Origin: Gordius sp. MW1
Taxonomy: Eukaryota; Nematomorpha; Gordioida; Gordea; Gordiidae
Length of the DNA: 64,000 nucleotides
Assembly (NCBI GenBank): GCA_964036665.1
Contig: OZ038526.1
Location: 22,692,001-22,756,000, forward strand
Reading direction: 5' to 3'
In this document: positions 621 to 62,620 of the stretch, in pieces
How positions within the stretch are numbered: position 1 is the first letter of the stretch
How the letters are laid out: each line of letters begins with the position of its first letter
The notes under the pieces: generated by a model
Database searches by the model: none
What the model was told of the DNA's origin: nothing
The model's input: only the letters and a program-made list of their open reading frames with translations
Position numbers and translations under genes: made by a program

Positions 621-1638
621 AAAGTATCTATCCAACATATTATTTTCATGGTAATCGATTTCATGGAATCCAAAGAAATCTTCCACATCATTACAAGGTT
701 CCCGTGAACTAGTTGTAGCTATTTTTCCGTCGGGTATTTGTTTCCTTAAAAAATTAATTAATCTGGCTTTTGGTTCCATATTTTTTGGAAGCTTAACTAA
801 TGTAATGAATTGCCCAAAAATTATTATAACCATTTAAAAAAAAATTATTATATAATAAAGAAACATTGATTTTATTTTAAAGTGTTTTTTTTTAATTTAA
901 GCTGCTGATTTTAGAGAAAAAAATCATTTTGTTGTTAATGCACAATAGGCATTTCGCCTTTAAGTTGACTTTATCATCTGTATCATCTATAAGCTTGAAA
1001 TATGTTTTGTATGGGAAAAATGGAAATTTGGTTTCTTCTTTTATACTCTCTACTACATCCATAATAAAACTATTTTTTATTATATATCTATAAAATGAAT
1101 ATTAATATGACTTACAAGATTTTTCAAAAAGTTTTGAATATAAAAAGGAAAAACTGATGTTTAATGTTTCTAATGATTAGATGAAAAATCAATATAAAAC
1201 TCGGCTTAACATTTAATAATGAATAAATTTGAATAAAATAAAATTGTATTTTCATTAAATTTTAATTAACAAATATTATTAATATCTAAAAAATAATATA
1301 ATTTATATATTAATTTAAAGGAGCCCTAAAAGGAGCTACTCCCGCGTCCGCTTTTCATTTTTAAAAAGGAAAGACGCTCCAGCTTTTTTTGAAAAAATGT
1401 AGCGGCTCTACTCCGGAGCGCCGCATCTGTAGCGCCCCTCCTTAACAAGACTGATTTTAACCATAATATATAAACATTTTATTATTTATTTCTTGCATTT
1501 ATTTATTTATTTCATTTATCTTTTTATTTAATTGATTTTCTTTAATTTATTTAATTTTATTTATTTATTTGTATTTATTTATATATATATTTATTTGCAT
1601 TTATTTATTTAATTTTATTTATTCCACTTTGTTTATAG
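621..1638. other. AT-rich spacer with TTTA repeats and a small GC-rich palindromic insert
   Basis: No gene is supported here. Around 1316-1447 a GC-richer island, unlike its surroundings, has partly matching inverted ends (AAGGAG..GCTAC against GTAGCGCCCCTCCTT), so it is probably a short MITE. Positions about 1476-1625 are a low-complexity ATTT/TTTA run that ends in TTTATAG, the acceptor of the first PDP exon seen in this window. The PDP 5' exon(s) and promoter were not found and probably lie left of the window. Confidence 0.5.
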
Positions 1639-4600
1639 CGACTTTCGACACCTCCTCACCCCCTCCCAATGCCGAGACGTCATAGCCGTCAATCAAATGA
1701 CCGTCGTACCATCTCAAGCTCACGTGACTCCAGCTGATCACGTGTTTCCTTCGGATCCTAATCACGTTATTACCAGGTTGGAAAGTAATTGGCTTGGTTC
1801 CAACGCCCCTACCGAAGACCGAATGGCGGCGGCCCTTCGATCAGCTGATGGGGCGGTGATTGCCGCGGGGGTCTTTGACGGTCACCTGGGTCCCCTATGT
1901 GCCCACCTCTTGGCCCGTCGATTTTTACACTTTCTCGCCCTCACCTTCACACCCCCGGCTTCACCCCTGCCCCTCCATGCCCAGCAGGAGAGGGGTGAGA
2001 AAGGGGCGGGGTCTTGGGGGGTAAGGGAGGGATACGGAGCGGGGCTGGACATGATTGACGTGATGGCTAACCTATCGTTCGCGCCGAGTCCCTACGCTAC
2101 GCCTTCCTTCCCCACCCATCTCTACGACGAGTGAGTGGTAGTGTTTGAACAAACGATTTTAAAGTTTAAGGCCTAGATTTGCATTTTAATTTACAAAAGT
2201 TTAATTCATGGTTAAATAATTTAATTGTGAATGTTAATTATAAAGAAGCTTCTTCGCTTACATTTATATGTAATAATAAATATAGTAAAGTAAGCACAAA
2301 TCATTAATTAGACTTTATTTATTGCATTTTTATCGATTTTTAAAATAAAAATTTAATCATAATTTTTTCTAATTATAATTTTAATGTGATTTTTTAACAT
2401 TTTATCATACTGTATTTAGTTCCATTCAACTACTTTGTATTTACGTCGTCAAGTTAGGTTAAGTAAAATTAAGCAAAATATTTGCATAAAGAAACATAAG
2501 ATATCGATAATTATGTATTTTTCATATCTCTGAAATATTAAATAAGCTAAAGCTTGGAAACTATGTGTGTCATATCAACCTTATTTGTTGAATGTTGATT
2601 TTGATATAAATTCACATATTTCATTAAAATTAAATACTACGATAAAAGCCTTAATCATATTACGCGTATACATTAGATTTAATCCAAATAAAATATTTCA
2701 GAATATTTTATTATTAAAATTGATCGATTGAATACATTTCAAGTTAACATAAAGAATAATAAAAACTTAAACATATAGCAGTTCGACCTTATAATCTATA
2801 ATATAAAAACGAAACTATGTGTGTGTGTGTGGGGTATATATATGCCGCCACCAATTTTGGAAAACTACCAGACCGATTTGGCTCAAAATTTCACAGTTCA
2901 TTCCTGACACTCTGGAGCATGTGATTTGTTCGAGCCAATCGGTCCAATAGTTTTCGAGCATTCGGACGCGTTGCACTGTATACGTAAATAGACCAATAGA
3001 AGTAGAACATATAGACATCAAACTTTATTTTTACTTCAATAAAATTCCAACATAATTTAATACAGTCGGGTAAATGGCAAAACTACGTTTGCCGGGTTCA
3101 TCTGGTTAATTATAAAATACAAGCTAAATAAAAACAAGTAAACAAATGTATATGTAACAGCAATCATTTAAAATAGAAATGAGATTCTTAAATAAACAAG
3201 TAAACAAAAGAAGTGAACTAAATAATAATAATTCGCGTATAAGGTAGATACGTATCGAATTTGCAATCGCTCCCGCACCCTAGCCCAGCCTTCCTGCGAC
3301 ACCCTTGGATCGTGGAATCCCTAGCCCGAGCCCATTCCTCCTTCGACGCCATCTTGAGTGAAAGCGCTCATCTCGCGATCCACGATCCCTCCGCCCCCGT
3401 GCCCCACCGGTTAACACTGTCCGAACTCGGTCGGATATTTCCGGACGTGAGAACAGCCTTTTCTGGTTCCACCTCCTGCACCGTCTGGCTCGATGAAGAA
3501 CAAGATGGCGGCGAAGGTGCCACCCTCTTTCTCTCCAACGTCGGTGATTCTAGGGCCGTCCTGGGTACGCTTATTTACTTCGTTGTTTACACTCTTGTTT
3601 TTGTTTACTCGGTTGTTTACACTCTTGTTTTTGTTTACTTGGTTGTTTACTCTTTTGTTTATTCTTTTTTGTCCTGAAATGATTCTCAGTGTTTTAAAAA
3701 TAGGGCGGGGTTTTGTTGTTTTGTCGACCTTTGGTTTATGGTGTCTGTTTTTCTTAGCCGACCTTTAGGCTTAGTCGAAATTTGAAAAATAGATCAGAGT
3801 GTCGACCGTTAGTCTTAGTTGAACCAAAGGCCGACCAAACAAAACCTAACGCTGCTTTCTTCGTACGTTCTCTGGTTTACTATCATTCTGTTTTTGTTTA
3901 CCAATTAGTTAAGGTGCGTGAAATTTTATACGTCGGAATCGTTGATATTCTCGTGACGTCTCGATTTTTGGATCATCTGTTTACTAATCTTTTGTTTGTT
4001 TACTCTTGCACATCGTTATTTCAAGTATTCAGCTCAGGATCAGGACTTAAATAATAAAAATTGCTGTTGTGTGGATGTTGTTGTTTATTTTAAGGATGGA
4101 TGGGAAGTGCGAAGCATCACGATATTACTTTCCCTAAATTGTAAAAAACCTCATTTCTGGCCCGGTAGTTGGGGCAGCTTTAATAATTTTGGCTTGGCCG
4201 GGCCGACGCCTAGAAGAGTTCGGGCCGGGCAGCTTAGTTGTAAAATCGGACCGGGCCGGTTCGCGCCCTCTCGACTTCTTATTTGTCAGTGTTGTAGTAG
4301 TTTCCCTAATATGTCTTTATTTACTATCATCATCATTATTTTTATTAAGAAGTGGTTGTTCCGGGGGGTGGGGGAGCATAGGGGCCGACCATCTTAAAAT
4401 CTTGGAAGTTAGCAATTGTGGGGTTATCGCGGTTTCCCTTTTTCATTCAAATTTCACGTTGTTTATTTATATTTGGGGCTTCGCGTGCTAAGAGGAAGCT
4501 ACTGTATTTTTGGTCAAAATTATTATTAGACGGTGTAATACTCAATCAAAAAGCAGTATAACATAGGTTTCCACATGAATTATTAAAAAAATTACAAGTT

Positions 4601-7600
4601 GGACGAGACGGACGGACAAACGGACAACCAAAAACGAGCCCATAAATTGCATAGCAATTAATAGTAAGAGAATTTAAATTCCAAACTTTTATACACAAAT
4701 CAGCTTTTTTTTTGGAATTACAAATATTAAATTTAGTTTTGCTATTTTTATTAAACTTCAAAGTTTGGAGCTCTAAAGAGATCACATTTTTTGGAGCTTA
4801 TATAAATGGCGGTATCGAATTTATCGTAAATTAGCTCTCGCTCAATATTCTTTATTTTTTTATCATTATCTTTAAAATAGCATTATAAATTTCCCATTTG
4901 TTAATGACTTTTTAAAACATATCATGCTCGTATAATATTTTATTGTTGTAACGTAAAAGAAGCTGTCTCGCATATTACCAAAAAAACCAGAATAAATATG
5001 CTGCTTAATGTAGCGTCCGGACTGCTGTGTCCAATCCTAATCAGCTGATTAAACTTCTTAAAAACAGATGATAAACATATGTTCGATTCATTCATTCTTT
5101 TATTGATTCAGCTATTGGTGTATGCATACATAGACTAATAATGATACCGTATGCTGATTTTTTGCATTCTTTGAGCATCTTAGATACAACTCTTTATATA
5201 TACTATTTGCAATGTAGTTTAAAATTTTTCCTACCGAGCCCTATTTTCCTTTGTTGAAGGCTTTATTGATTGCTTCATCAATAAAAATTTGAAGATAAAT
5301 TTCTTAAAATCAGCGCAATAAATAGCGCGCTTACTTCGTTAATATATGTGGTCCCTAAAAAGTCACTTAGGACCCGACCCGAGGTCAGGGCCGGTTTCGG
5401 GTCACCCGTGCAGGTCTCTACTACAGTCTTACTTAAAAATTATCAGCTGTTTGTCAGTGTCTATAGTAGTGTTGTAAAGGCTGGGCTTTGTTTGGTCGAC
5501 TACACATAAACAACCCATGGGTTTTTTGGTCCGTTTTTATTAGTCGACCACTAGGCTTAGTCGAAATTTGAAAAACAGACCAAAATCGATCGTTAGTCTT
5601 AGTTAAACCAAAGGTTGACCAAACAAGACCCAGGCGTTTTTTAACACTAGTTTATAGTAATCTTAGTCTATGTGTGTATCTCTTTTTTTCTTTTATCCAT
5701 GACTGTTTAGCGGTCTCTATATTTACATTACAGATCTTTGGTTATCTCCTGTTAATTTTCATATCCTCCTTTATTTTAAGATTCCCCGCCTAGCCTTGGG
5801 CCTCTTCCTCCTTTTCCTGCCAAATTTATCTTCTCTTTTTTCTACATCGCGACCATAATATCTTACTTAGTTTTTGTCTTGGTAGATGTTGTACCGGGAA
5901 CCGGTCAAAGGCGCACATAAATAGGAGCGAAACTCGTCATGATTGCTCAGGATGAATTTAATATATTGTCTTAACACAAAATATTTTATATTAACATGTC
6001 TTAGTGCAATCATAAAATATATGGGTTAGGGTAAGGGTTAGGGTTACAATAACAAAGTGTGCTCCTTTCCTGATGAGCTCTGATGTGCTCCTTTGACCCC
6101 CACTCGTTGTAGCCACCCACATATCTCTTCCTTATTCTTCAATGCCTTTATGTTCCTTTTTACTTACTCCTAACCAGTGTAAGACTAACGGGCGTTTTTG
6201 GTCTGTTTTTCAAATTTCGACTAAGCCCAGTGGTTGACTAATAAAAACGGACCAATAGAGCACAAAGTTTTTGGTCCGTTTATGTTTAGTCGACCAAACA
6301 AAACCCAGCCGTTTTTACAACACTACTCCCAAATCCATCTTAGCATTCTCATCTCCATGGACGTTATAGCCCCCATGATTCCCAGCTATACAGGATTGTT
6401 ATACCTTCGAGTCTTGTGCAGGGATCTTTTTGTCACACAAAAGGCCTGCTAATTCTCTTCATTTAAGCCATCCGGAATTTATCCTCGTTTTCATTTCTTT
6501 AGCCATCTACATACTTGAAGAATTTCACACTTTTAAGTTCCCCTTCGCCTAATGCAAGGCATGCACATCGCTGATCTTCATCTGGTTCAAAATTTGCCTT
6601 CGTCTATTCTGTTTTCTTTCTATTGCGTTTATGTTTATTAGCATGGGCGTAGCTAGGATTGGAATTAAGGGGGGAGGGGGGTAATAATGATATATGTAGG
6701 GACAAAATGTTCATTACTTGAAATTTTACCCATAATTTTGGATAATTTTCAACAAATTGGATTTAGAGTTTTAGAATAAATATAGTTTAGGTTTTTTAAC
6801 ATTTATCACAATCTTTATACGAATTTATATACCAAATTTTGCGAATAATGATCAGCGCCCAAGCCACAAAAATCAGAAAGACATCACAAAATCAAGCCCC
6901 TTCCTATTTTTTGAACAAAATTAATTTAAAAACCTATCGTATTATTTAAGGAGGGGGGGGGGAACAGCCGCGCCTCTCTGCCCCCCCCCCTCCTTTGGCC
7001 ACGCCTAGAGCCCTGAAAAATGAAATTTCTTCTGCCCGGCCCGAGTCCAACTTCTCCATTTTTATTAAGCCCGGCCCAAGCCCGAAAGACTTTTTTCTTT
7101 TTTGCCCGACCCGAACATGAGGCCCGAAAATTTTATAAAATTCGGCCCGACCCAAAATCCGATCGGGTTGGACTTCGGGCGGCTCGTGCAGGGCTCTAGC
7201 CACGCCCGCGTTCATTAGTGTTTATGTATGTATGTACGTACGTGTGTATAGGTTCCATAGGTCCAAACGGGGAATGGGTCACGACCAAGTTATCCTATAA
7301 ACATTACGCCGAAAACACGTGGGAATGTAAGAGACTGAAGGCCGCGCATCCAGCCTCCGAGGCGAGTACTATACTGAAGGCGGGCCGACTGCTTGGCTAC
7401 TTAATGCCGACCCGAGCCTTCGGGGATATGATGTTCAAATGGGGCCTAAAGGATATACTCAAGATCAGAAAGGTAACATTCCCATTTCATATTAGAGCGA
7501 CCCGAACCCGACCGCCAAGCGTTTTTGGAAATTTTGAACCCGGGTTGGAGTCGGGTTAGCCCTGTGCAGGGCTTTAATTCCCATTTATTTCATGATCCTC

Positions 7601-10431
7601 GAGATTCTTGTTGGAAATGCTTTGGAATCATAATCATCTTGTTTTATTGTGTCGTGATTATTATGTTAGAGTAGGAGAGGGCTTCGATTTGAAATTTGTA
7701 AGGACTGAATTTTAATTTGTGAAAACGAGTTATTTTTGCTAGTAAAATAATATGCAAATTTAGGAAAATTTTTATTCCAAAATCCTCTAATATGAGATTC
7801 TTAAATCAATTGGAATTATGTTTTAGTGATTATTAAAGTAGAAAAGTTTTGATTTAATTTGTTGAGACTGCGTTTTAGTCTTATTGTATATACATAAACT
7901 TAACATTTAATTAAAAAACTTGGAAAATAAAAAACTATGCAAAATAATATGTTGCCTAACTCGAATATGATTTATACAACAATTTTAGTAGCTTTAATCA
8001 ATGATTATCAAGTAAATACCACGTTTTTGTCTTTTTTTTGGCTCTGGGTTGAAGTTTTAGTCTCTGGATAACTATACTCTCCAAGGCCTAAGATGAACTA
8101 GAAGCTGCAAAGTGCGAATGTATTTTTTAAATAATAAGCTGAATTCTTCGATGATTGGGGTAGAAATAATGGGTTATTTTAATTGTGGACTCTAAGTTTT
8201 TACGATCGTCTATTTTAAACTTAATAACTTTGGGGCGGGTACACATGCCTGTAGAGCCACACATATATATGTGTATACCAGTGTTGTAAAAAGACCAGGG
8301 GGTTTTGTTTGGTCGACTGACGGTCAACCATGGTCTGTTTTTCACATTTCGACTAAGCCTAGTGGTCGACTAAGACCAAAAACAGACCAAACAAAACCCA
8401 GCTTTTTTCGCAACACTAATACAATACCTAAATTGCTTGATTTTCATTAGTATGTATGTGCGACACAATATGAGCGATCTTGTTGATGAGATTCTTTTGT
8501 GATTTTATTAGTAATTATGCTTTGAGACAATTTAGGTTAACTAGCCGCCGTTATAGGATGTGAAATATCATAGGCACTTCATGAAGTGTAAATGGTTGAA
8601 AATCACATTGATTTAGCTAACCCTTGCCTTTACCTCGCATAAACAATCACCCTTTAAAATGTAGGAAAGTGTCCATGAAATTTGCATGAAATCTTAGGTA
8701 AAGGGATTAGATCAATGAATAGGGCCAACCTATTTTGATCAGGTTGGACCTCAAGTCTCGGCAAATTTTTGAGAGACAAGTCATTTAACGAAGGAACAAT
8801 GTATTTAAATATGATTCTAACGAGGCGGTAAAAAGATATTGTTTTAGAAATACCATTCTATAGATAAAGAGGTTCTCATCATACACTTATAATTATTGTT
8901 ACTTTAGTTTAGAAAAATCTAAAAAAATTACATTTTTACCCCGTCTTTGGCTTGGTAATTTAAAAATGTTTTTTTTTGATCGATATACGTATGAATCGTG
9001 CTCGACACACAACAGCTATTTCCGTCCCTCGACGTCTACGTACCCAGTCACTACCACACTCCGCCCTATTTGACCGCCACCCCCGAGGTCATAAGTCACG
9101 TGATCACGCCGGCAGATAAATTCGTCGTCCTAGCCACGGACGGGTTGTGGGATTTCTTGAACACTCGTCAAGTCGTCCAAATTGTGGGACGTTATTACGA
9201 AGCACGATGGGGCGGCGGCGGTAAAAAGCAAAGGAGCGGCGGTATCGCCTTTGATCTTTCTCGTGATCAAAGAGAGCTGCCGCCTTCGCTCGAGCAATCC
9301 TTTGACACCGAGCCGCCGCTCGACGTTCAACTCGATCCGGTCTCTCGAGATTTCCGGCCCGATTCGCACGGTCTCGAAGATGTCGGCCATCATCTCGATG
9401 GTAATGAAGCGACTCGTCTAAAAACATGTGTCGACCGTCGAAAGTCCGTCGAAATTATATCGACACATTTGTCAGGCTTTTTTATAATGTTTGAAGCAGA
9501 GTCTTGGAGGTCGATTTATAAATATTATTTGAATAATTTAGGATTAAATCAATGTAATTGTTATGTAAAGTTTGGGATTTATTGAATCTCTTTTACCATA
9601 CGAGTTATTATTTAGCTTTATATGTAGATTGTATTTTGTAATTTAGAAAAGCTTTGGTCATTTGGATGAATGAATGAATGAATTTTTAATAATAATTAAG
9701 TAATACTCTCGTTAGATTATAAAAAATTTACCATACCTAAAAATGCATTGTTATCAACTATGGCCTACTGATGATCTCTTAGAGGAGCGAAAACTTTATA
9801 TAAGTGTCTGTTATTCTTTTCGAGTCACATGCTAAAAAAAAAGATAGGGATATTTAGCCAAATTAGTCTCTAACCAAAATCGCCACTAGATGGCAGTAAT
9901 TTGTGGCACTTGTACATATTCATAAACAACTCGCAATCATTATTAAATATAATACCTCGACTCCGATTAGAATATCTCTTCATACAAATTGTAAAAAAAA
10001 GGTTAAAATTAATTGTTATGCAATTTATGGTCTCATTTTCTGTTGTCCTGTCCTGTCCAAATTGTTTAATTTTTTCTTCTCAATTTAAATGTCTACTACT
10101 CATTGCCATGATAGACATACCAGACGTTACACCAACCCTGACCCCCCCGGACCCTGTGGTGGATCCTTTGAACAGCTGTTCGATTCCCGAAAGATTTTAC
10201 GATCCTTCCTCCTCGCCCGATGTCAATGCCGCTACCCTCCTGATCGAACACGCCCTCGGATCTAATCCCGCCTCAGGGGTGGGAAACCGGAAAGGGCATA
10301 ACCCTGCACGAGGCCCCACCTCCCACCTTGATTACGTCAAAATGTCTACCCTGCTCCAATTACCGCCCGAAATCAGTCGAGACTTCAGGGATGACATAAG
10401 CGTACTCATCCTATTTTTTCACGATTCTTGA
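1639..10431 (+). CDS. PDP: Pyruvate dehydrogenase phosphatase (PDP)-like PP2C phosphatase, 5' incomplete
   Basis: PDPs are mitochondrial Mg/Mn-dependent phosphatases that reactivate the pyruvate dehydrogenase complex by removing phosphate from E1-alpha. Five exons fit with matching phases: 1639-2130, 3248-3564, 7252-7472, 9016-9400, 10115-10431, giving 576 codons plus TGA. PP2C motifs appear in order: LTPSQ and SNAPTEDR, then GVFDGH (exon 1), AFSGSTSC and NVGDSRAVLG (exon 2), GRLLGYLMPTRAFGD (exon 3), HYHTPPYLTATPEV and LATDGLWDFL (exon 4), DVNAATLLIEHALG and RDDISVLIL (exon 5). All metal-binding acidic positions are present. LTPSQ, HYHTPPYLT and DVNAATLLIEHALG identify PDP rather than a general PP2C. 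The mitochondrial targeting start is missing, so an upstream exon lies outside. The acceptor at 9015 has a weak pyrimidine tract; the end of exon 4 (9400, or alternatively 9220) is uncertain, since both keep phase 1. ATTAAA near 10549 may be the polyA signal. Confidence 0.88.
2795..3105 (+). mobile_element. Helitron-like non-autonomous element, copy 1 (PDP intron 1)
   Basis: Starts TCTATAATATAAAAACGAAA and ends with a short hairpin (GGCAAAAC..GTTTGCC), GGGTTCAT and CTGG before a T. A TC start, a hairpin near the 3' end, a CTRR terminus and insertion between A and T are typical of Helitrons. A second copy lies at 58674-59001 with about 80 percent identity by eye. There is no Rep/helicase ORF; apparent ORFs across it are shadows. 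The (GT)n tract near 2818 follows the 5' end. Confidence 0.6.
3578..3665 (+). repeat. Minisatellite of about 31 bp units just after a splice donor
   Basis: Two full units and a shorter third, based on GTTGTTTACACTCTTG followed by TTTTTGTTTACT, begin about 14 nt after the donor of PDP exon 2 (3565). It is T-rich and encodes nothing. Confidence 0.7.
4140..4300. repeat. GC-rich dispersed repeat, partner of 16590-16680
   Basis: A GGGCCGGGC-rich stretch in the AT-rich PDP intron 2. GGGCAGCTTAGTTGTAAAAT followed by CGGACCGGGCCGG recurs with few changes at about 16637-16670. Such GC-rich ends are typical of the hAT-type elements in this window. Boundaries are not clear. Confidence 0.45.
4558..4800 (+). 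repeat. Dispersed repeat containing GGACGGACAAACGGACAAC
   Basis: The core ACAAGTTGGACGAGACGGAC..CCCATAAATTGCATAGCAATTA recurs at about 9990-10085 (minus orientation, just before PDP exon 5), 17610-17690 (minus) and 23990-24055 (plus). Short ORFs in both strands share INCYAIYG through this common DNA, not through a protein family. Confidence 0.5.
5467..5649. mobile_element. hAT-type MITE, TAGTGTTGTAAA family
   Basis: Inverted ends TAGTGTTGTAAAGGCTGGG and CCAGGCGTTTTTTAACACTA, flanked by GTCTATAG (5459-5466) and GTTTATAG (5650-5657), a nearly exact 8-bp target duplication. The inside is a near palindrome rich in GGTCGACC/GTCGAC. Same family as 42116-42319. Confidence 0.8.
5903..6098. mobile_element. 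Short TIR element with internal telomere-like repeats
   Basis: Left GGTCAAAGGCGCACAT and right ATGTGCTCCTTTGACC are inverted copies. Between them, at about 6021-6046, lies a degenerate TTAGGG run (GGGTTAGGGTAAGGGTTAGG). The right-end sequence recurs at 54957-54973, so it is dispersed. No coding capacity. Confidence 0.55.
6175..6325. mobile_element. hAT-type MITE, TAGTGTTGTAAA family, degenerate left end
   Basis: The right end CAGCCGTTTTTACAACACTA is intact; the left end is CAGTGTAAGACTAACGGGCG. Flanks CTCCTAAC and CTCCCAAA resemble an aged 8-bp target duplication. The inside carries the family GGTCGACC-type segments. Confidence 0.65.
7006..7198. mobile_element. hAT-type MITE, TAGAGCCCTG family, 53 bp before PDP exon 3
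   Basis: Ends TAGAGCCCTG and CAGGGCTCTA, with a perfect 8-bp target duplication GCCACGCC at 6998-7005 and 7199-7206. The inside has repeated GGCCCGACCC/GCCCGGCCC blocks. It sits just upstream of the PDP exon 3 acceptor at 7251. Confidence 0.85.
7486..7576. mobile_element. Short hAT-type MITE of the same family, directly after PDP exon 3
   Basis: The right end is GTGCAGGGCTTTA; the left end is eroded (TTCATATTAGAGCGACCCG). ATTCCCAT at 7478-7485 and 7577-7584 is an exact 8-bp duplication. The left target duplication begins only 5 nt after the donor at 7473. Confidence 0.65.
8279..8418. mobile_element. hAT-type MITE, TAGTGTTGTAAA family (PDP intron 3)
   Basis: Begins CAGTGTTGTAAAAAGACCAG and ends TTTTTTCGCAACACTA, with the family-typical TTTGTTTGGTCGACTG inside. 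I do not see a clean target duplication. The rest of intron 3 (7577-9015) is AT-rich with no gene. Confidence 0.65.
9741..9910 (+). mobile_element. Retrozyme-like repeat, partial copy in PDP intron 4
   Basis: Homologous to 15622-15995, from the ..TTATCAACTATGG.. segment through the hammerhead region to ..AGATGGCAGTAATT. It includes CTGATGA (9778-9784), GCGAAAAC and GTGTC ending at 9818, but stem II is imperfect and the 5' half of stem I is lost, so the ribozyme looks decayed. Confidence 0.65.
9778..9840 (+). ncRNA. Decayed hammerhead ribozyme remnant
   Basis: CTGATGA is followed by TCTCTTAGAGGA (a weak stem II), GCGAAAAC, a short hairpin and GTC at 9816-9818. The 3' strand of stem I (TTTTCGAGTCACAT, 9827-9840) is intact; its partner upstream is missing. 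Cleavage is unlikely. Confidence 0.5.
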
Positions 10432-12659: not shown

Positions 12660-14045
12660 AGCTGATAATAATAATAAACCCTGCTAAATAAATTAGTCTC
12701 TAATTTAAATTAACCTATAGTAGGTGCTAAATAGAGTAAACTTTTAAATTAATTGCGTCCCTCCTAAATTGAGTTATATTATCTCATTCAAAATATTAAC
12801 AAAACCGCAATTTATTTTCAAATATAATATAACAAAATAATAATTATTATTTACCATAATTATGAGGGTTATTCCATAATCACCATCAGAAGGGTTGAAT
12901 TTAATATGCCCTTATTATATATACCTATCTTGAATGCGACACAAAATTAACTCACATGCTAAAAAAAGATAGGGGGGAAAAATAGAGTCAAATTAGTCTT
13001 TTATTAAAATTGCCTATAGATGGCGCTAATTACACTGGTCAACAAAAAAAAATAACCGGGAAACGGTCAACATATTCCGATAGAGTTTTTTGTGGTGAAC
13101 ACAAATATGTTTTTAGTTTTTTTCCTATACGTCAAGTTTTTAGATATTTCGATTCAAAGTTGCGAAAAAGACCGTTTTTGACTTTTTCGACGCTCAATGG
13201 AGCGACATTGAATGGTTAAAAAAATTATTTAACTTCTAAGTGGTAGAACCAACTTAGGGTAAAACATTGAAAAATGATTTTTTCCCCTATTGTTTTTACT
13301 TTTTCCAATATATCGAATTTCAATTAGTCCCTATGCGAAGCGGCATCCTTTGAGCCTCCCTCCCTCCCTCTTGGTGCATGTGAGTGATTGATGGATGATG
13401 TGGGGGTGTGTAAGACTAGTGGCGTAATACGAGCTATTCCTCTAGTAAGGAGGGAGGATGACAGGCGTAGTAATAGGAATAGTTCGTATTAACCCACTAC
13501 TCTTGCACCCACCACACTCATCAATCACTTACATGCACTAAGGGTATAGTGTTATATAAGCATATAAGCCAATTAGATAGAGAGGGAGGGAGGCTCAAAG
13601 GAAGCCGCGATTTCGCATAGGGACTAATTGCATTTTTGATATATATTAAAAAGTAAAAACAATAGGGAAAAAAATCATTTTTCAATGTTTTACCCTAAGT
13701 TGGTTCTACCATTTAGAGGTTTAAAAAACATTTTTTTGCCATTCAATATCGCTCTATTAAGCATCGAAAAGGGTCAAAAACGGTCATTTTTGCAACTTTG
13801 AATCGAAATATCTAAAAAACTTGAAGTATAGGAAAAGAACGAAAAGCATATTTGTGTTCACCACAAAAAACTCTATCGGAATATGTTGATTGTTTCCCGG
13901 TTATTTACACAAGACCTTTATTTGTTGACTAGTGTTATAGTATACCTATAAGTTAATTGCGGCACTCCTAAATGGAGTTAATATTATCTTCTTCAACGTA
14001 TTTACAAACCCGCAATTTATTAAATAATTTCAAATATGTTTAATT
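12660..14045 (+). mobile_element. Retrozyme-like repeat, tandem copy split by a fold-back element
   Basis: One unit runs from TTAGTCTCTAATT (12683) through GCAATTTATT to the junction AACTCACATGC (about 12950). A second begins CACATGCTAAAAAAAGATAGG, runs to 13032 and resumes at 13932 (TAAGTTAATTGCGGCACTCC) to about 14045. The repeat period is about 307 bp (12683 to 12990). The hammerhead core is deleted at the junction between units. The fold-back element 13033-13931 is inserted in the second unit. Confidence 0.65.
13033..13931. mobile_element. Large fold-back element with arms of about 400 bp
   Basis: The left arm (CACTGGTCAACAAA, ..CCGATAGAGTTTTTTGTGG, ..GGTAGAACCAACTTAGGG) returns inverted on the right (CCCTAAGTTGGTTCTACC.., CCACAAAAAACTCTATCGG, ..TTTGTTGACTAGTG). 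TTA on both sides may be a 3-bp target duplication. No protein is supported; ORFs in the arms are shadows. Relatives lie at 29435-29975 and 32110-32885. Confidence 0.8.
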
Positions 14046-15424: not shown

Positions 15425-15621
15425 CTCACAATTATATTTGAAATTGATTAATAAACTGCGGTTTTGTTAATAATTTGAAGAATAATAATCCCATTTAGCA
15501 GTGCCGCAATTAACTTAAAAGTACACTCTAGTTATCGTTATCTACAGGCAATTTTAATTAGAGACGATATTGACTATAAATATCCCAATCTTTTTTAGCA
15601 TGGGTTCTCATTATCTTTTTT
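15425..15621 (-). mobile_element. Retrozyme-like repeat, inverted partial copy
   Basis: The reverse complement reads CATGCTAAAAAAGATTGGG.., GTCTCTAATTAAAATTGCC, ..TTAATTGCGGCACT.. and ..AACAAAACCGCAG, the same order as 15857-15990. It meets the plus-strand copy head to head at about 15621. The hammerhead part is absent. Confidence 0.6.
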
Positions 15622-15995
15622 AAAATATTAACAAACCCGCAATATATTAATTAATTTCAAATATGAATAATAATTATTATCTACCATAATTATCAATGTT
15701 TTTCTTTAACCGCCATAAGAATGGGTTAAATCTAGTTTGGCCTTATATATTATACCTATCTCGCTTAGAATGTGACTAGAAAATTAACTATGGCACACTG
15801 ATGAGCTCTAATAAGAGCGAAAACGTTATATGTCTGTTATCGTTTTCGAGTCACATGCTAAAAAAGCTAGGGATATATATAGTCAAATTAGTCTCTAATT
15901 AAAAATGCCTCTAGATGGCGCTAATTAGAGTGTGCTTTTAAGTTGATTGCGGCACTCCTAAATGTGGTTATTATTATCTTCTTCAAAATAGCTTC
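15622..15995 (+). mobile_element. Retrozyme-like repeat with intact hammerhead motif
   Basis: Starts in the AATATTAACAAACCCGCAAT part, runs through TATACCTATC to the hammerhead (15770-15856), and continues CATGCTAAAAAAGCTAGGG.., AGATGGCGCTAATTAGAG.., TTGATTGCGGCACTCC to TTCTTCAAAATA. That is about one circularly permuted unit, as expected if the unit ends at the ribozyme cleavage site. No ORF. In animals, retrozymes are short non-autonomous retroelements with type I hammerheads; assignment here rests on the motif, the size and the dimeric copy at 12.7-14 kb. Confidence 0.65.
15770..15856 (+). ncRNA. Type I hammerhead ribozyme candidate
   Basis: Core CTGATGA at 15798-15804; stem II GCTCT/AGAGC (15805-15809, 15814-15818) with loop AATA; then GAAAA, one A more than the usual GAAA. 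Stem III is ACGT/ATGT (15823-15826, 15830-15833) with loop TAT. The expected cleavage is after GTC at 15834. Stem I has a proximal TGT/ACA (15835-15837, 15795-15797), an internal loop, and a 14-bp distal stem, 15770-15783 against 15843-15856, with one mismatch. All required elements are in the right order. The extra A in the core might lower activity. Confidence 0.72.
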
Positions 15996-45989: not shown

Positions 45990-48390
45990 TACCTACGACG
46001 GTCCCAAATCCGTGTGCAAAAAGTGGAGGGTTGGCGTCAGGTCGGAAACCGGTTATAAAAACCAACTCCAAAATCATGATAGTTTCAAGCAAATTTTAGA
46101 AGAAAAAGATAGGGCGTCCTCCACAAACGACGCGCACTGCATACCACGCCCGTGCAATGTGAAAAATACACTAGGGTTACTGCCCAACTCACAACAAAGG
46201 CGGATAAAGAAATTAGTTGTGGAAAGAATGCGAATTCCGTGCTGGAATGTAAGATCGTTGACGGGGAAGTGCATCGAGGTCGCACTAATGCTAAAAAGAA
46301 GAGAGATACACATCGCCTGCCTACAAGAGGCGAGGTGGAACGGAACCAAAGCTCGGGAGTTAGGAGAAGGATACACACTATTCTACACACCAAATCGTAG
46401 AAACGGGGTCTGATCGTTCTAAGCGAATTGTTTAAGGACAAGGTGGTGGAAGTCAAGCGTTGTTTAGACAAACTAATGTGGGTCAAGATTGCAGATCAAG
46501 GGGGCCCCTTAACCATTATGTCCGCGTATGCTCCCCAATTTCGATGTATATAATCAGAGAAATACATATTCTTCGATTCATTGGGAAAGGAAATGCAAGG
46601 ATTAGGACAGGAAGAAAGGCTATTTATTGGGGCGGATTTCAAGGCTAACGTAGAGAAAGATTGCCTCGGGTATGAAGGCAATCATGGAGGCTATGGGCAT
46701 GGTGTGAAGAATAAAGAAGGGGATAATATTTTCCAAGTATTCCAAGCATACGACATGGCGATCGTTAACACTTATTTTTAGAAACGAGAAGATATTTGTG
46801 ACTTATAGAAGTGGGAAGCATTTTAGTCAAATTGACTATCAGCTCATACGGCGAAAGGACTTATAAAGTATCAAGGGTTGCAAAGCAACACCGAGAGAGG
46901 AAATCGCCCGGCAACATCGTCCCCTCGTTATGGATCTTGACAGAAGAGTATTTCCAGAAAGAAGAAAGGTCTATGAACCTCAAATTCAATACGAAAGACT
47001 AAAGGATACGTCGACGAACGAAAAACACCATCAAAAAGCCTCCTCATTCGGTGCAAGGAAGTTGCAAAGAAACGTATAAGTCGATTGTGACTAACTAGGG
47101 ACCAAAAGGAAATATCGATTCGTGTTCTAGGACGGACCAAATGAGGCAAAGCTATGAATAGGGAACCATGGTGGTAGGATTAATCGCTTAGGGATTTAAT
47201 CGAAAGAAAGAAAAATCTATATAGACTGTGGCATAAATCAAAAAGGTCAGAGGATTACCAAGAGTTTAGGGAAGAAAAGAGAGCCGCAAATAAGGCCGTT
47301 GCAATAGCGAAGAATGGCGCGTACACCGAGATGGCAAACAAACTCTATCATAAAGTGGGCGGTAGGCCGTGGTACAAATTGGCCAAGATAAGGGAGAAAA
47401 AAAGTCTCGATGTCGGAGTTTTTAAAATAGTAAAAAACGACAAAGGTCAAACCTTATTCAAGCCTAAGTAAGTGATGAAAAGATGGAAAAGGTATTTTTA
47501 GGAACTTATAAGATGCAAAAAGGAAAAGCTAATGACCCAGATGGAATGCTTATTGAAGCATTGTTCGGATCTCATGAAGAAGGAGTTACCACCATTATGA
47601 ATCTCCTTAACAAGATATTGGTAGAAGAGGGAATTTCTAATGAATGAAGAGCAAGCACGATTATACCCTGTTTAAAGGCAAAGGAGACCCTCAAGACTGT
47701 GGCAATTACAGAGGTATCAAGCTAACTTGCTACTCCATGAAGCTTATGGAAAGGATCTTAGTAACAAGGCTGAAAAACGAGGTGGAAATATAAAGTAATC
47801 AATTCGGATTTGTGGCCGGCAATCCACAATCGACCGAATCTTCGCACTTAGACAAATGATGGATAAGTATGGTGAAAAGAGGAAATACCTATGGTCTTTA
47901 TCGACGAGAAAGCTTATGACACGGTCCCCTGCGTTTTAATATGGTGGTGCCTTAGAAAACAAAATATCCTTGACGCATATATACGGCTTATGAAAAATAT
48001 TTATGAAGCCTCAAACTCTTGCGTTAGGACGACAGTTGGAGACTCTAAATCTTTTCGGGTTAAAATTGGATTACATCAAGCATCTGCTTTAAGTCCCTTT
48101 TTGTTTAATATAGTTATAGACACGATAACGAGGGACATTCAAAAGCCATCGCCATGGTGTATGCTATATGCCGATGATATAGTACTATGCGAGGAAACAA
48201 AGGAGAAAGTATTCGAAGAAGCCGAAAAGTAGTCAAAGCGCTTAGCTGGATATGGTTTAAAGGTCAACGATCGTAAAACGGTGTACATGGAAAAAGATTA
48301 GACAATATGGCGCTTACCCGGTTAAGCTGGAAGAATATTAAAACAAACCCCACAACTGTGGGACCAAATAATCGATAAAGAAGAAGATAT
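45990..48390 (+). mobile_element. RTE-like LINE, copy A, broken (plus strand)
   Basis: The AP-like endonuclease is scattered over frames: RMRIPCWNVRSLTG, ACLQEARWNGTKARELGEGY, then GADFKANVEKD. Reverse transcriptase: GFVAG, AYDTVP, GLHQASALSPFLFN and the catalytic MLYADDIVL at about 48160-48185, ending in an in-frame TAG. Many stops and frameshifts. After about 48300 the C-terminal part is deleted and the sequence jumps to the 3' end (ACAACTGTGGGACCAAATAA followed by AAGAAGAAG). Confidence 0.8.
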
Positions 48391-51282: not shown

Positions 51283-52671
51283 TCTTCTTCTTTATCAGTT
51301 ATTTGGTCCCACAGTCGTGAGGTTTGTTTTGATTAGTTTCTTCCCTTGACCGGGTGAGTGCCATATCTTGACTAATCTCTTTTGTTTCATTATTTTATCG
51401 ACTTGCCCTTTCCACGTGACACGGGGTCGTCCTCTTCCTCTCTTGCCCGGTACCTCCATGTCCAGTAATTTTAGATTTATGTTATTCGTGTCCCTTCTAA
51501 ATATATGCCCATACCACCTTAGCCGATTTTCGTTAATCATGTCCGCCATAGGTTGTAAACCCATTTTTGTCATGAGCAGGTCATTCGTCATATGGTTGAG
51601 CTTAGTATACCCCAAGCTCCATCGTATCATTCTCATCTCTGTGGCTTGTAATAGCTTTCCTTCCGTGGTGTTTGATGCCCATGTTTCACTTCCATAGAGT
51701 AACACCGGTCTTACGATGGATTTGTAAGCTTTGCTCTTCAACCTATTGGCATTTTCTTGTCGCACATTACACCGGATATACTTCGCCATTTAAGCCATCC
51801 TTTTTAAATCCGGGCATTGATCGGTTGCGCAACCTCCCTCTTGATGTAAAATCAAGAGGTATGTAAACATGTCTACTTTTGAGTACTTTAGAGGGTCATC
51901 CAGCGATGGGCTGCTTGTACCGTTCATTTCCATGTATACAGTTTTTCGATCGTTGACCTTTAAACCATATCCACTTCGACCACTTTTCGGCTAATTCGAA
52001 TACTTTCTCCCTTGTTTCCTCGCATAGTACTATATCATCGGCATATAGCATACACCATGGCGATGGCTTTTGAATGTTCCTCGTTATCGTGTCTATAATT
52101 ATATTAAATAAAAAGGGACTTAAAGCAGATCCTTGATGTAATTTAATTTTGACCCGAAAAGATTTAGAGTCTTCAACTGTCGTCCTAACGCAAGAGTTTG
52201 AGGCTTCATAAATATTTTTCATAAGCCGTATGTATGCGTCAAGGATATTTTGTTTTCTAAGGCACCACCATATTAAATCGCGGGGGACCGTGTTATAAGC
52301 TTTCTCCAAGTCGATAAAGACCATATGTAGGTCTTTCTTCTTTTCACCATACTTATCCATCATTTGCCTTAGTGCGAAGATTGGGTCGATTGTGGATTTG
52401 CCGGCCACAAATCCGAATTGGTTAGCCGATAATTCCACCTCGTTTTCAGCCTTGTTACAAAACCCATTCCATAAGCTTCATAAGCTTCAAGGAGTTGCAA
52501 GTTAGCTTGATACTTCTGTAAATGGCAGAGTCCCGAGGATCTACTTTGCCTTTAAAAAGGGTATAATCGTGCTTGCTCTTCATTCATTAGGAATTCGCTT
52601 TTCTACCAATATCTTGTTAAGGAGGTTCAACATGGTGGTGACTCCTTCTTCACGACATCCGAGCAATTCCC
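51283..52671 (-). mobile_element. RTE-like LINE, copy B, 5' truncated (minus strand)
   Basis: The 3' end TCTTCTTCTTC..TTTGGTCCCACAGTCG (plus-strand reading) starts at 51283. Two long open pieces: the C-terminal part 51789-51295 (SIVRPVLLYGSETW, RLRWYGHIFRR, KRGRGRPRVTW) and the RT piece 52438-51896 (GFVAGKSTIDPIFALRQMMD, VFIDLEKAYNTVPRDL, HQGSALSPFLFN, MLYADDIVL). They are separated by frame changes. The endonuclease is absent; the 5' break meets the duplicated block at 52672. Confidence 0.85.
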
Positions 52672-59887: not shown

Positions 59888-62620
59888 GGTTAGTATACCC
59901 TAAGCTCCACGGCATCATTCTCATCGCTATGGCTTGTAATAGCTTTCTTTCCGTGGTGTTTAATGCCCATGTTTTACTTCCTGAGAGTAACCGGTCTTAC
60001 GATGGATTTGTAAGCTTTGCTCTTCAACCATAGCATTTTCTTGTCGCACATTACACCGGATATACTTCGCCATTTAAGCCATCCTATTTGGATCCGGGCA
60101 TTGAAATCTGTTGCGGAACCTCCCTCTTGATGTAGCATCGAGCCGAGGTATGTAAACCTGTCTACTTTTAGGTATTTTAGATGGTCATTCAGCGATGGGC
60201 TGCCTGTAACGTTCATTTCCATGTACACCGTTTTTCAATCGTTGACCTTTAAACCATATCCAGCTAAGCGCTTTGACCACTTTTCGGCTTCTTCAAATAC
60301 TTTCTCCTTTGTTTCCTCGCATAGTACTATATCATCGGCGTATAGCATACACCATGGCGATGGCTTTTGAATGTATCTCGTTATCGTGTCTATAATTATA
60401 TTAAATAAAAAGGGACTTAAAGCAGATTCTTGATGTAATCCAATTTTTACCCTAAAAGGTTTAGGTCTCCAACTAACGCAAGAGTTTGAGGCTTCATAAA
60501 TATTTTCATAAGGCGTATATATGCGTCAGGGATATTTTGTTTTCTCAGGCACCACCATATTAAAACGCGAGGGACCGTGTCATAAGCCTTTAACACGGTC
60601 AAAGACCATGTGTAGGTCTCTTCTCTTTTCACCATACTTATCCATCATTTGTCTTAGTGCGAAGATTGGGTAGATTGTGGATTTGCCGGCCACAAATCCG
60701 AATTGGTTAGCCGATATTTCCACCTCGTTTTTCAGCCTTGTTACTAAGATCTTTTCCATAAGCTTAAAAGAGTGGCAAGTTAGATTGATACCTCTGTAAT
60801 GGCCACAGTCTTAAGGATCTTATTTGCCTTTAATTAGGGGTTAATCGTTGCTCTCCACTGATTAGAAATTCGCTCTTCTACCAATATCTTGTTAAGAAGG
60901 TTCGTCATGGTGGTAACTCCTTCTTCGCGACATCCGAGCAATGCTTCCATAGGTATTCCATCTGGGCCATTTGCTTTTCCTTTTTGCATCTTGTTCATTT
61001 GTGTCCTAACTTCATCCTCCTGAAAGAGTTCGACAATACTTATATTTGGCTCAATTTTGGGAAGGGAATCCTTGTCATTTGCATATTCATAAGGTTCCTT
61101 TTCATCTTTCCATCACTTCCTTCGGCTTGAATAAGGTTTGACCTTTCTCGTTTTTGAATATTTTAAGAACTCCGACATCGCGACTTTTATTTGTCCCTTA
61201 TCTTGCCAATTTGTACATAAGGCTATCGCCCCCTTCATAATCCAGTTTGTTTACCATCTCGGTGTAGGCGGCATTCTTCTCTATTGCAACGGCTTTTTTG
61301 CGGCCCTCTTTGCGTCCCTATACTTTTGATAATCTTCCGACTTTTTTGATTTATGCCACCGTCTATTTAGATTTTTCTTTCTTTCGATTAAATCCCTAAT
61401 CAATTAAACCCCCCCCCCCCCACCATAATTCCCTATTCATAGCTTTGCCTCCTTTGGTCTGTCCTATAACACGAATCGATGTTTGCTTTATGTCCTTAGA
61501 TAGCGTCTCCCAATCGCCGTCAACGTCCCTTTGCAACTACCTGGCACCCAATGAGGAGGCTTTTTGATGGTTTTTTTCGTTTATCGACGTATCTTTTAGC
61601 CTTTCATATTGAATTCAAGGTTCATAGACCTTTCTTCTTTCGGGAAATACTGTTCTGTGAATATCCATAACAAGGAGACGATGTTGCCTGGCGATTTTTT
61701 CTCCCGGTATTACATCGCAATCCTTGATCTCCATAAGTCTTTTCGCAGTATAAGCAAATAGTCAATTTGACTGAAATGCTTCCCACTTCTATAGGTCACA
61801 ATATGATCTTCGCGTTTTAGAAAATAGGTGTTAACGATCACCATGTCGTATGCTTGGGATACTTGGATAAGTTTTTTCCCTTCTTTGTTCTTAGACCACG
61901 CCCATAGCCTCCATCATTGCGTTCATACCCGAGGCGATCTTTCCCTACGTGAGCATCCGCTCCAATAAAAAGCCTTTCTTCCTGTCGGATTCTTTCAATT
62001 TCCTTTTCCAATGAATCGAAGAATATGTCTTTCTCTGATTCCATACACCCAATTTGGGGAGCATACGCGCACATAACGGTTAGGAGGCCACCTTGATCTG
62101 CAATCTTCACCCACATTAGCCTGTTGGAACAACACTTGACATCCACCACCTTGTCCTTGAACGAATCGCTTAGAACGATACCGACCCCGTTTCTAAGACT
62201 TGGTGACCCATTGTAGAAAAGCTTGTATCTTTCTCCTAATTCCCGAGCTTTCGTTCCGTTCCACCTTGTCTCTTGTAAGCAGGCGATGTGTACCTTTCTT
62301 ATTTTTAGCATTTGTGCGACCTCGATGCTCTTCACCGTCAACGTTCCCACATTCCAGCACGTTATTCGCATTCTTTCCACAACTAATTTTCTTAACCTCC
62401 TTCATTGTGAGTTGGGCAGTAACCCTAGTGTATTTTTCACATTGCACGGGCGGGGTATGTCGTTTGTGGAGGATGCCCTAGCTTTCTCTTGTAAAATCTT
62501 GTTTAAAACCATCATGATTTTGGAGTTGGTTTTTATAGCCTCGACCTGGCTATTTATCAAGTACGAAATAAATAATCTCTGCTTTCATCTCCACTTCCTT
62601 TGTTGAAATAAGAGGGAAGC
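59888..62620 (-). mobile_element. RTE-like LINE, copy C, longest but 3' truncated (minus strand)
   Basis: 5' end near 62620. The endonuclease is open over 62380-61838: RMRITCWNVGTL, ACLQETRWNGTKARELGERY, then GADAHVGKDRLGYERN, with the expected N, E and D residues. RT is broken, with AYDTVP and MLYADD (about 60350) preserved; the C-terminal piece with DRFTYLGSMLHQEGG, then SKAYKSIVRP, lies at 60228-59974. The 3' end seen in copy B is missing: the copy stops at an hAT-type fragment at about 59888. Confidence 0.85.

Follow-up and report, generated by a model that had tools for sequence, protein, structure and literature searches.

The genome examined here carries a ribozyme-bearing, non-LTR retrozyme of approximately 366 nt, and we consider it likely that the RNA of this repeat is inserted by the machinery of Penelope-like elements. 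In their sequences, the retrozyme copies show a signature already known from Penelope, in that they end at two discrete sites and occur as head-to-head insertions with one outer end of each kind. We describe the repeat in a 64-kb stretch of DNA (hereafter the window) and in a genome search that covered 211.8 Mb in 12 contigs.

A sequence-only reading of the window had proposed a type I hammerhead ribozyme inside a small dispersed repeat, and both parts of that proposal are supported at the level of sequence. All parts of the hammerhead are present in the claimed order on direct reading (Table 1), and the repeat is represented by partial copies in the window and, genome-wide, by hundreds of core sites. 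The distal stem I, described as 14 bp, does have the long arm but consists of 13 pairs and one mismatch, and, a point absent from that reading, stem I beside the core has just 3 bp, separated from the distal part by a large internal loop; this internal loop and loop II can both be read in the window hammerhead. The extra A before stem III, flagged as unusual, is indeed present, and the five aligned copies in which it is not exact carry substitutions there. A core variant with one additional nucleotide in the same GAAA stretch (U13a) is argued to be tolerable in a passage of PMC3088659; the extra nucleotide here differs in being an A that is common to the whole genomic family. Among 300 simulated 64-kb sequences (first-order Markov, both strands searched), the core with a stem II of at least 4 bp occurred on average 0.043 times per sequence, in agreement with the earlier statement that this combination is improbable by chance in 64 kb. 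The core with stems I-III averaged 0.0033 per simulated sequence, and the real window holds one.

Table 1. Retrozyme copies in the window and parts of the hammerhead motif (window positions)
Feature	Position	Strand	Details
Direct arm of insertion, about one 366-nt unit	15600-15994	+	Ends at site A (junction-model 83, window 15992)
Inverted arm of that insertion	15430-15603	-	Head-to-head with direct arm; outer end at site B (junction-model 121)
Second ribozyme-bearing copy	9753-9913	+	5′-truncated; stem II damaged; 2-nt insertion before cleavage triplet
Third copy, 5′ portion	12690-13035	+	Core deleted between stem I arms; with 13936-14038 totals more than one unit
Third copy, 3′ part	13936-14038	+	Ends near site B (junction-model 118)
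Type I hammerhead ribozyme motif	15770-15856	+	Predicted cleavage after C17 at 15834
Distal stem I, 5′ arm	15770-15783	+	Direct reading
Proximal stem I, ACA	15795-15797	+	Direct reading
CUGAUGA	15798-15804	+	Direct reading
Stem II and loop	15805-15818	+	5 bp, loop AAUA; 90.5% of cells paired (38 distinct copies)
GAAAA	15819-15823	+	GAAA core with one extra A
Stem III	15823-15833	+	4 bp, ACGU/AUGU, one G-U
GAAA core with extra A, plus 4-bp stem III	15819-15833	+	Extra A exact in 36/41 aligned copies
C17	15834	+	Followed by proximal UGU, 15835-15837
Distal stem I, 3′ arm	15843-15856	+	Direct reading

The covariance-model check suggested by the same reading came out negative. At the gathering cut-off, Rfam gave 0 matches in the window; with permissive settings the best match, Hammerhead_HH9 (RF02275), reached 28.7 bits where the cut-off is 52, with E 5.7e-4 over 8 kb. 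The core and stem II of the window motif are almost letter-identical to that family, whereas stem I is shorter and one A is inserted. Array-type copies also scored under the cut-off (29.4 bits at best), the second window copy had no Rfam hammerhead match even with permissive settings, and at E 0.1 no hammerhead match was obtained in loci L016, L081 or L082. Such sub-threshold scores would be expected of a chance or decayed hammerhead look-alike, a reading we regard as exceedingly improbable. A search with the 37-nt core, allowing 3 mismatches, returned 424 sites in the genome and 0 for the reversed control, which refutes the look-alike as to sequence; the Markov simulation and the pairing of the stems also argue against it. 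Searching with the 27-nt core pattern and allowing 2 mismatches gave 527 sites, again with 0 for the reversed control, and 66 sites match the 37-nt core perfectly. Over 38 distinct copies, 95.3% of stem cells are paired, compared with 29-55% when the partners are slid, so that other genomic copies do keep both the core and the paired stems, contrary to the third refuting outcome named in that reading. Covariation could not support the stems because the copies are too alike: no pair showed a change in both partners, and 95.3% was reached by 490 of 500 shuffles. We conclude that the motif is real as a sequence feature and that its genomic copies settle this question.

A second hammerhead-like family was also seen, represented by CTGATGATGGGCTATAATAGCCCGAAA and its variants, with 54 sites at up to 2 mismatches and 0 in the control. 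Some of its members form head-to-head pairs and helix III is not evident; an example lies at C1:4250957 (L083).

Penelope-like machinery could also insert a repeat whose ribozyme no longer cuts, in which case the template would be a linear transcript. We hold this to be unlikely, though far from negligible. The weak stem I, the extra A and a competing fold are in its favor: in the window copy the hammerhead fold is at -14.8 kcal/mol (without tertiary contacts) and the minimum free energy (MFE) fold, which breaks the core, is at -26.1 kcal/mol, a gap of 11 kcal/mol. The core is also not convincingly more conserved than its surroundings, with 81 of 385 windows reaching it, and passages of PMC11167929 describe a Penelope hammerhead that showed no activity in the absence of protein and was not needed for insertion in vitro. 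On the other hand, CUGAUGA, CGAAAAC and AUGUC are all intact in 33 of the 41 aligned copies, although finding these copies by the core pattern favors intact cores, and the tandem array described below, which we consider young, likewise retains the core. Fifty pattern hits yielded the 41 alignment rows. Of the nine hits left out, L023 at 1239 and L089 at 550 matched by chance, L037 at 1887 and L089 at 326 contain a head-to-head join within the 5′ arm, L092, L094 and L096 have a 5′ arm that is truncated, L032 has an odd insertion and L049 at 2587 is a further array copy.

The unit of the window copy is 366 nt long with 29.5% GC, and no stop-to-stop frame of at least 110 aa overlaps 15430-15994. 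Folded as a circle it has an MFE of -80.6 kcal/mol (z -3.7), and 0 of 100 shuffles were as low. Core sites are both dispersed and arranged in a tandem array of approximately 26 kb on contig C1, from 13.9 kb of which we extracted 15 monomers of 341-375 nt with a mean identity of 98%. With its hammerhead, unit size, low GC and freedom from a long ORF, the repeat fits by sequence the animal non-LTR retrozymes. The metazoan representatives from coral, mussel and axolotl, as described in parts of PMC7229834, have the same type I hammerhead with helices I-III (judged here by sequence and pairing), low GC, tandem copies, and Penelope-like elements in the same genome, as is the case here. Their units are approximately 170-400 nt, a range that includes 366 nt, and both this unit and the array monomers fall within the approximately 150-450 bp in tandem that we took as the size test. 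Relative to the elements in that account, the repeat described here has an extra A in the core, has ends resolved to two sites with mixed head-to-head copies, and comes from what is probably another phylum, Nematomorpha.

Several further features of the window touch these copies. The unit contains CTCTAGATGGCGCTAAT (window 15909-15925), which resembles insect CTCF sites and the GATGGCGCTAATTA portion of which recurs in many copies. The 3′ part of the third copy was severed from its 5′ portion by the later insertion of a palindromic (fold-back) element of approximately 900 bp (13036-13935), so that this element lies inside the retrozyme copy; its arms match MIR7533 on both strands, below cut-off. 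A PDP1-like phosphatase gene occupies 1613-10431 of the + strand, and two of its exons flank the second copy, which is in sense orientation.

Copy ends were analyzed at 46 loci. Thirty of these (L009-L038, where L009 is the window copy) were the best by BLAST to window 15604-15990 among 40 scored of 1308 candidates; eight were distinct loci among the first core matches on contig C1 (L039-L048, with L041 and L046 overlapping L040 and L045); and eight (L089-L096) were picked by hand, with their sequences still unseen, from 20 of the 66 perfect core matches. Ends were mapped on a unit model, on which 5′ ends were variable and 3′ ends preferred, and then on a junction model built from internal unit joins. 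Among 41 ends (31 direct and 10 inverted), 16 fell at junction-model 76-91, 17 at 113-131 and eight elsewhere. Thus, by a hand count in windows chosen after the data were seen, 33 of 41 ends lie at two sites approximately 40 nt apart. Site A follows ...GGGGTTATTATTATCTTC, and site B lies approximately 40 nt beyond it, after ...AATTTCTAATATA. The BLAST ends of array-type copies were 37-65 nt apart, and the eight loci fetched by perfect core had direct ends at 75, 76, 80 and 81 and at 117, 122, 136 and 136, which again form two groups. Around the presumed start sites no stem-loop was clearly conserved (alifold -1.55 kcal/mol). The flanks of the copies are 73% AT. Penelope-like insertion would be expected to leave target-site duplications of approximately 8-12 bp. 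Duplications of at least 8 nt were found in 25% of 32 copies, compared with 10% in mispaired controls, and are clear in few copies; L021 and L026 each have one of 12 nt.

The copies are dispersed, differ at their 5′ ends, favor two positions at the 3′ end and can be joined head-to-head, features that point to reverse transcription. They weigh against the reading that this is satellite DNA spreading by recombination and excised circles, with the hammerhead as a passive relic, which would account for the 26-kb array and the near-identity of its monomers but which we judge very improbable.

Head-to-head insertions were present at 18 of the 46 loci and could be scored at 16, and in all 16 one outer end was at A and the other at B. 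Ten of these were clear and six soft, with short arms or with ends from a few to approximately 20 nt off the site (L016, L017, L019, L020, L025 and L089); the two unscorable loci (L037 and L047) each have one outer end at neither site. The probability of 16 of 16 under an independent even choice is 1.5e-5, and that for the ten clear insertions alone is approximately 0.001, figures to be weighed knowing that scoring was by eye and that these same insertions had suggested the A/B rule. The insertion in the window is itself of this type, its inverted arm running to B and its direct arm to A. Among 44 core sites outside the array (from 100 of the 527), neighbors within 1 kb were head-to-head in five cases, on the same strand in one and tail-to-tail in none.

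Inversions at the 5′ end are common for LINEs, and LINE-type reverse transcriptase fragments are present in the window. A LINE reverse transcriptase could therefore have inserted the copies, the inverted arms being ordinary twin-primed 5′ inversions. Twin priming, however, yields one fixed 3′ end and an inverted part whose outer end may lie anywhere, whereas here there are two preferred ends, with both outer ends at them in 16 of 16 scored insertions, and poly-A was not obvious after the 29 aligned ends. We rejected LINE twin priming on the position of the outer ends and regard insertion by a LINE as decidedly unlikely.

Penelope-like machinery is the preferred source, but its head-to-head copies might owe their form to self-priming on a single template and not to priming on both target strands. 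Passages of PMC3846280 proposed this for rotifer Penelope copies, with palindromes at the join, and attributed head-to-head Penelope copies to self-priming on the antisense template. For the retrozyme, both outer ends lie at sites where reverse transcription would start, one at each, and two separate starts are the simple explanation; we hold self-priming to be rather unlikely.

The same genome contains candidate sources of such an enzyme. There are 118 GIY-YIG matches, many of them in long open frames of up to 938 aa and some in tandem with a period of approximately 2957 bp. Locus L081 has one such frame of 885 aa and another of 876 aa; in the first, Pfam placed GIY-YIG near the C-terminus and detected no reverse transcriptase domain at threshold, and most of the 120 relatives listed for it carry a reverse transcriptase domain, six of them GIY-YIG as well. 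We assign these frames as putatively Penelope-like from domain architecture, as no match bears that name. GIY-YIG neighbors within 6.5 kb were head-to-head in 18 cases, on the same strand in 16 and tail-to-tail in 0. One Penelope-like family, examined after the A/B rule had been noted from the retrozyme copies, has two ends approximately 34 nt apart with five of its ten copies at each, and its head-to-head arrangements were mixed in 3 of 3 (L072 with L073, L074 and L079; L074 has one listed GIY-YIG match, and its two arms were taken as one insertion). The pointer to Penelope-like elements in the sequence-only reading was apt for the proposed insertion mechanism. Comparison of the retrozyme with 14 Penelope-like loci gave no convincing common sequence (best E 2.7e-4, AT-rich). 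As a separate observation, members of the Penelope-like family with two ends (L072-L075, L077-L080 and L082) have a hammerhead-like motif after the ORF in which CCGAAGA replaces CUGAUGA, this form being found in almost every copy examined.

The retrozyme copies also resemble published Penelope- and Poseidon-type elements, for which passages of PMC11167929 and PMC3846280 describe an optional tail of 30-40 nt, head-to-head copies tailed on one side, tandems and AT-rich targets. In particular, a 31-bp tail is optional on one of the inverted pLTRs of Penelope (PMC3846280), and the in vitro work of PMC11167929 shows internal starts of reverse transcription at two sites for a Penelope-like element, as well as cutting and extension of both strands. 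The retrozyme itself is not a member of this group: it is without an ORF of its own and hence without the telomerase-like reverse transcriptase and GIY-YIG, and its ribozyme has a helix III, in contrast to the minimal Penelope-type hammerhead as portrayed in part of PMC7761336. Penelope-like elements have been put forward as strong candidate movers of retrozymes since both carry type I hammerheads and occur in tandem and in the same genomes (PMC7229834, in the part concerned with mobility). What is new here is how retrozyme copies end, at two sites and with mixed head-to-head insertions; a literature search of limited depth found no description of such two-site ends for retrozymes.

Based on these results, we propose the following route. 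Tandem copies would be transcribed and the RNA cut into units by the hammerhead, and, by analogy with published retrozymes, a host ligase may close the units into circles. The reverse transcriptase and GIY-YIG endonuclease of a Penelope-like element would then bind the retrozyme RNA and cut both strands of AT-rich DNA, with reverse transcription starting inside the RNA at the two fixed sites A and B. Where both cut strands prime, two cDNAs, one from A and one from B, would meet head-to-head; otherwise a single direct copy would result, with or without the 40-nt tail. We infer a shared enzyme from the shared signature, and the origin of head-to-head copies in priming on both strands, like every RNA step, belongs to this proposed part of the scheme. 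Several results weigh against the route: the competing fold and the 3-bp proximal stem I of the window copy, the lack of covariation and of convincing extra conservation in the core, the failure to find convincing common sequence with Penelope-like loci, and the scarcity of clear target-site duplications. In addition, the published Penelope-like enzyme showed in vitro the same start sites on either strand, so that one site per strand is not what was reported for it (PMC11167929), and earlier work ascribed head-to-head Penelope copies to self-priming (PMC3846280).

A more specific version can be offered tentatively, in which the enzyme starts once per site, with one site per target strand, on a ribozyme-made RNA circle and tends to stop after one lap, which would make animal retrozymes true non-autonomous Penelope elements. 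Of 32 direct arms counted by hand, 14 begin within junction-model 56-86, after approximately one lap, 15 run further and three are shorter; these arms come from loci ranked by full-length match and are hence biased, and several of the 14 are head-to-head joins. Of the eight core-fetched loci, one begins approximately one lap back (junction-model 56-86) and seven are shorter. Given this ranking and the disagreement of the core-fetched loci, we do not put forward one-lap stopping among our main claims as evidence of a circular template.

The host lineage can be judged from protein matches in the window. The reverse transcriptase fragment at 51896-52477 is 78% identical to its best match, in Gordionus sp. 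m RMFG-2023, and the matches listed outside Gordionus are 43-57% identical; it is one of several LINE-type fragments close to Gordionus proteins, some with stops (the others at 47677-48304 and 60112-60810). The PDP1-like gene also has its best match in Gordionus sp. m RMFG-2023, by 93 bits, with exons 36-65% identical. Gordionus belongs to the phylum Nematomorpha, and the host is therefore probably a further member of that phylum. Our literature search found no paper with both "Nematomorpha" and "hammerhead ribozyme".

The phylum Nematomorpha is thus probably to be added to the carriers of retrozymes. The ends of the copies are traces of the insertion step itself and match those of Penelope. 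Sites A and B constitute a fixed prediction of where reverse transcription would start, and the same analysis of ends can be applied to any animal with retrozymes.
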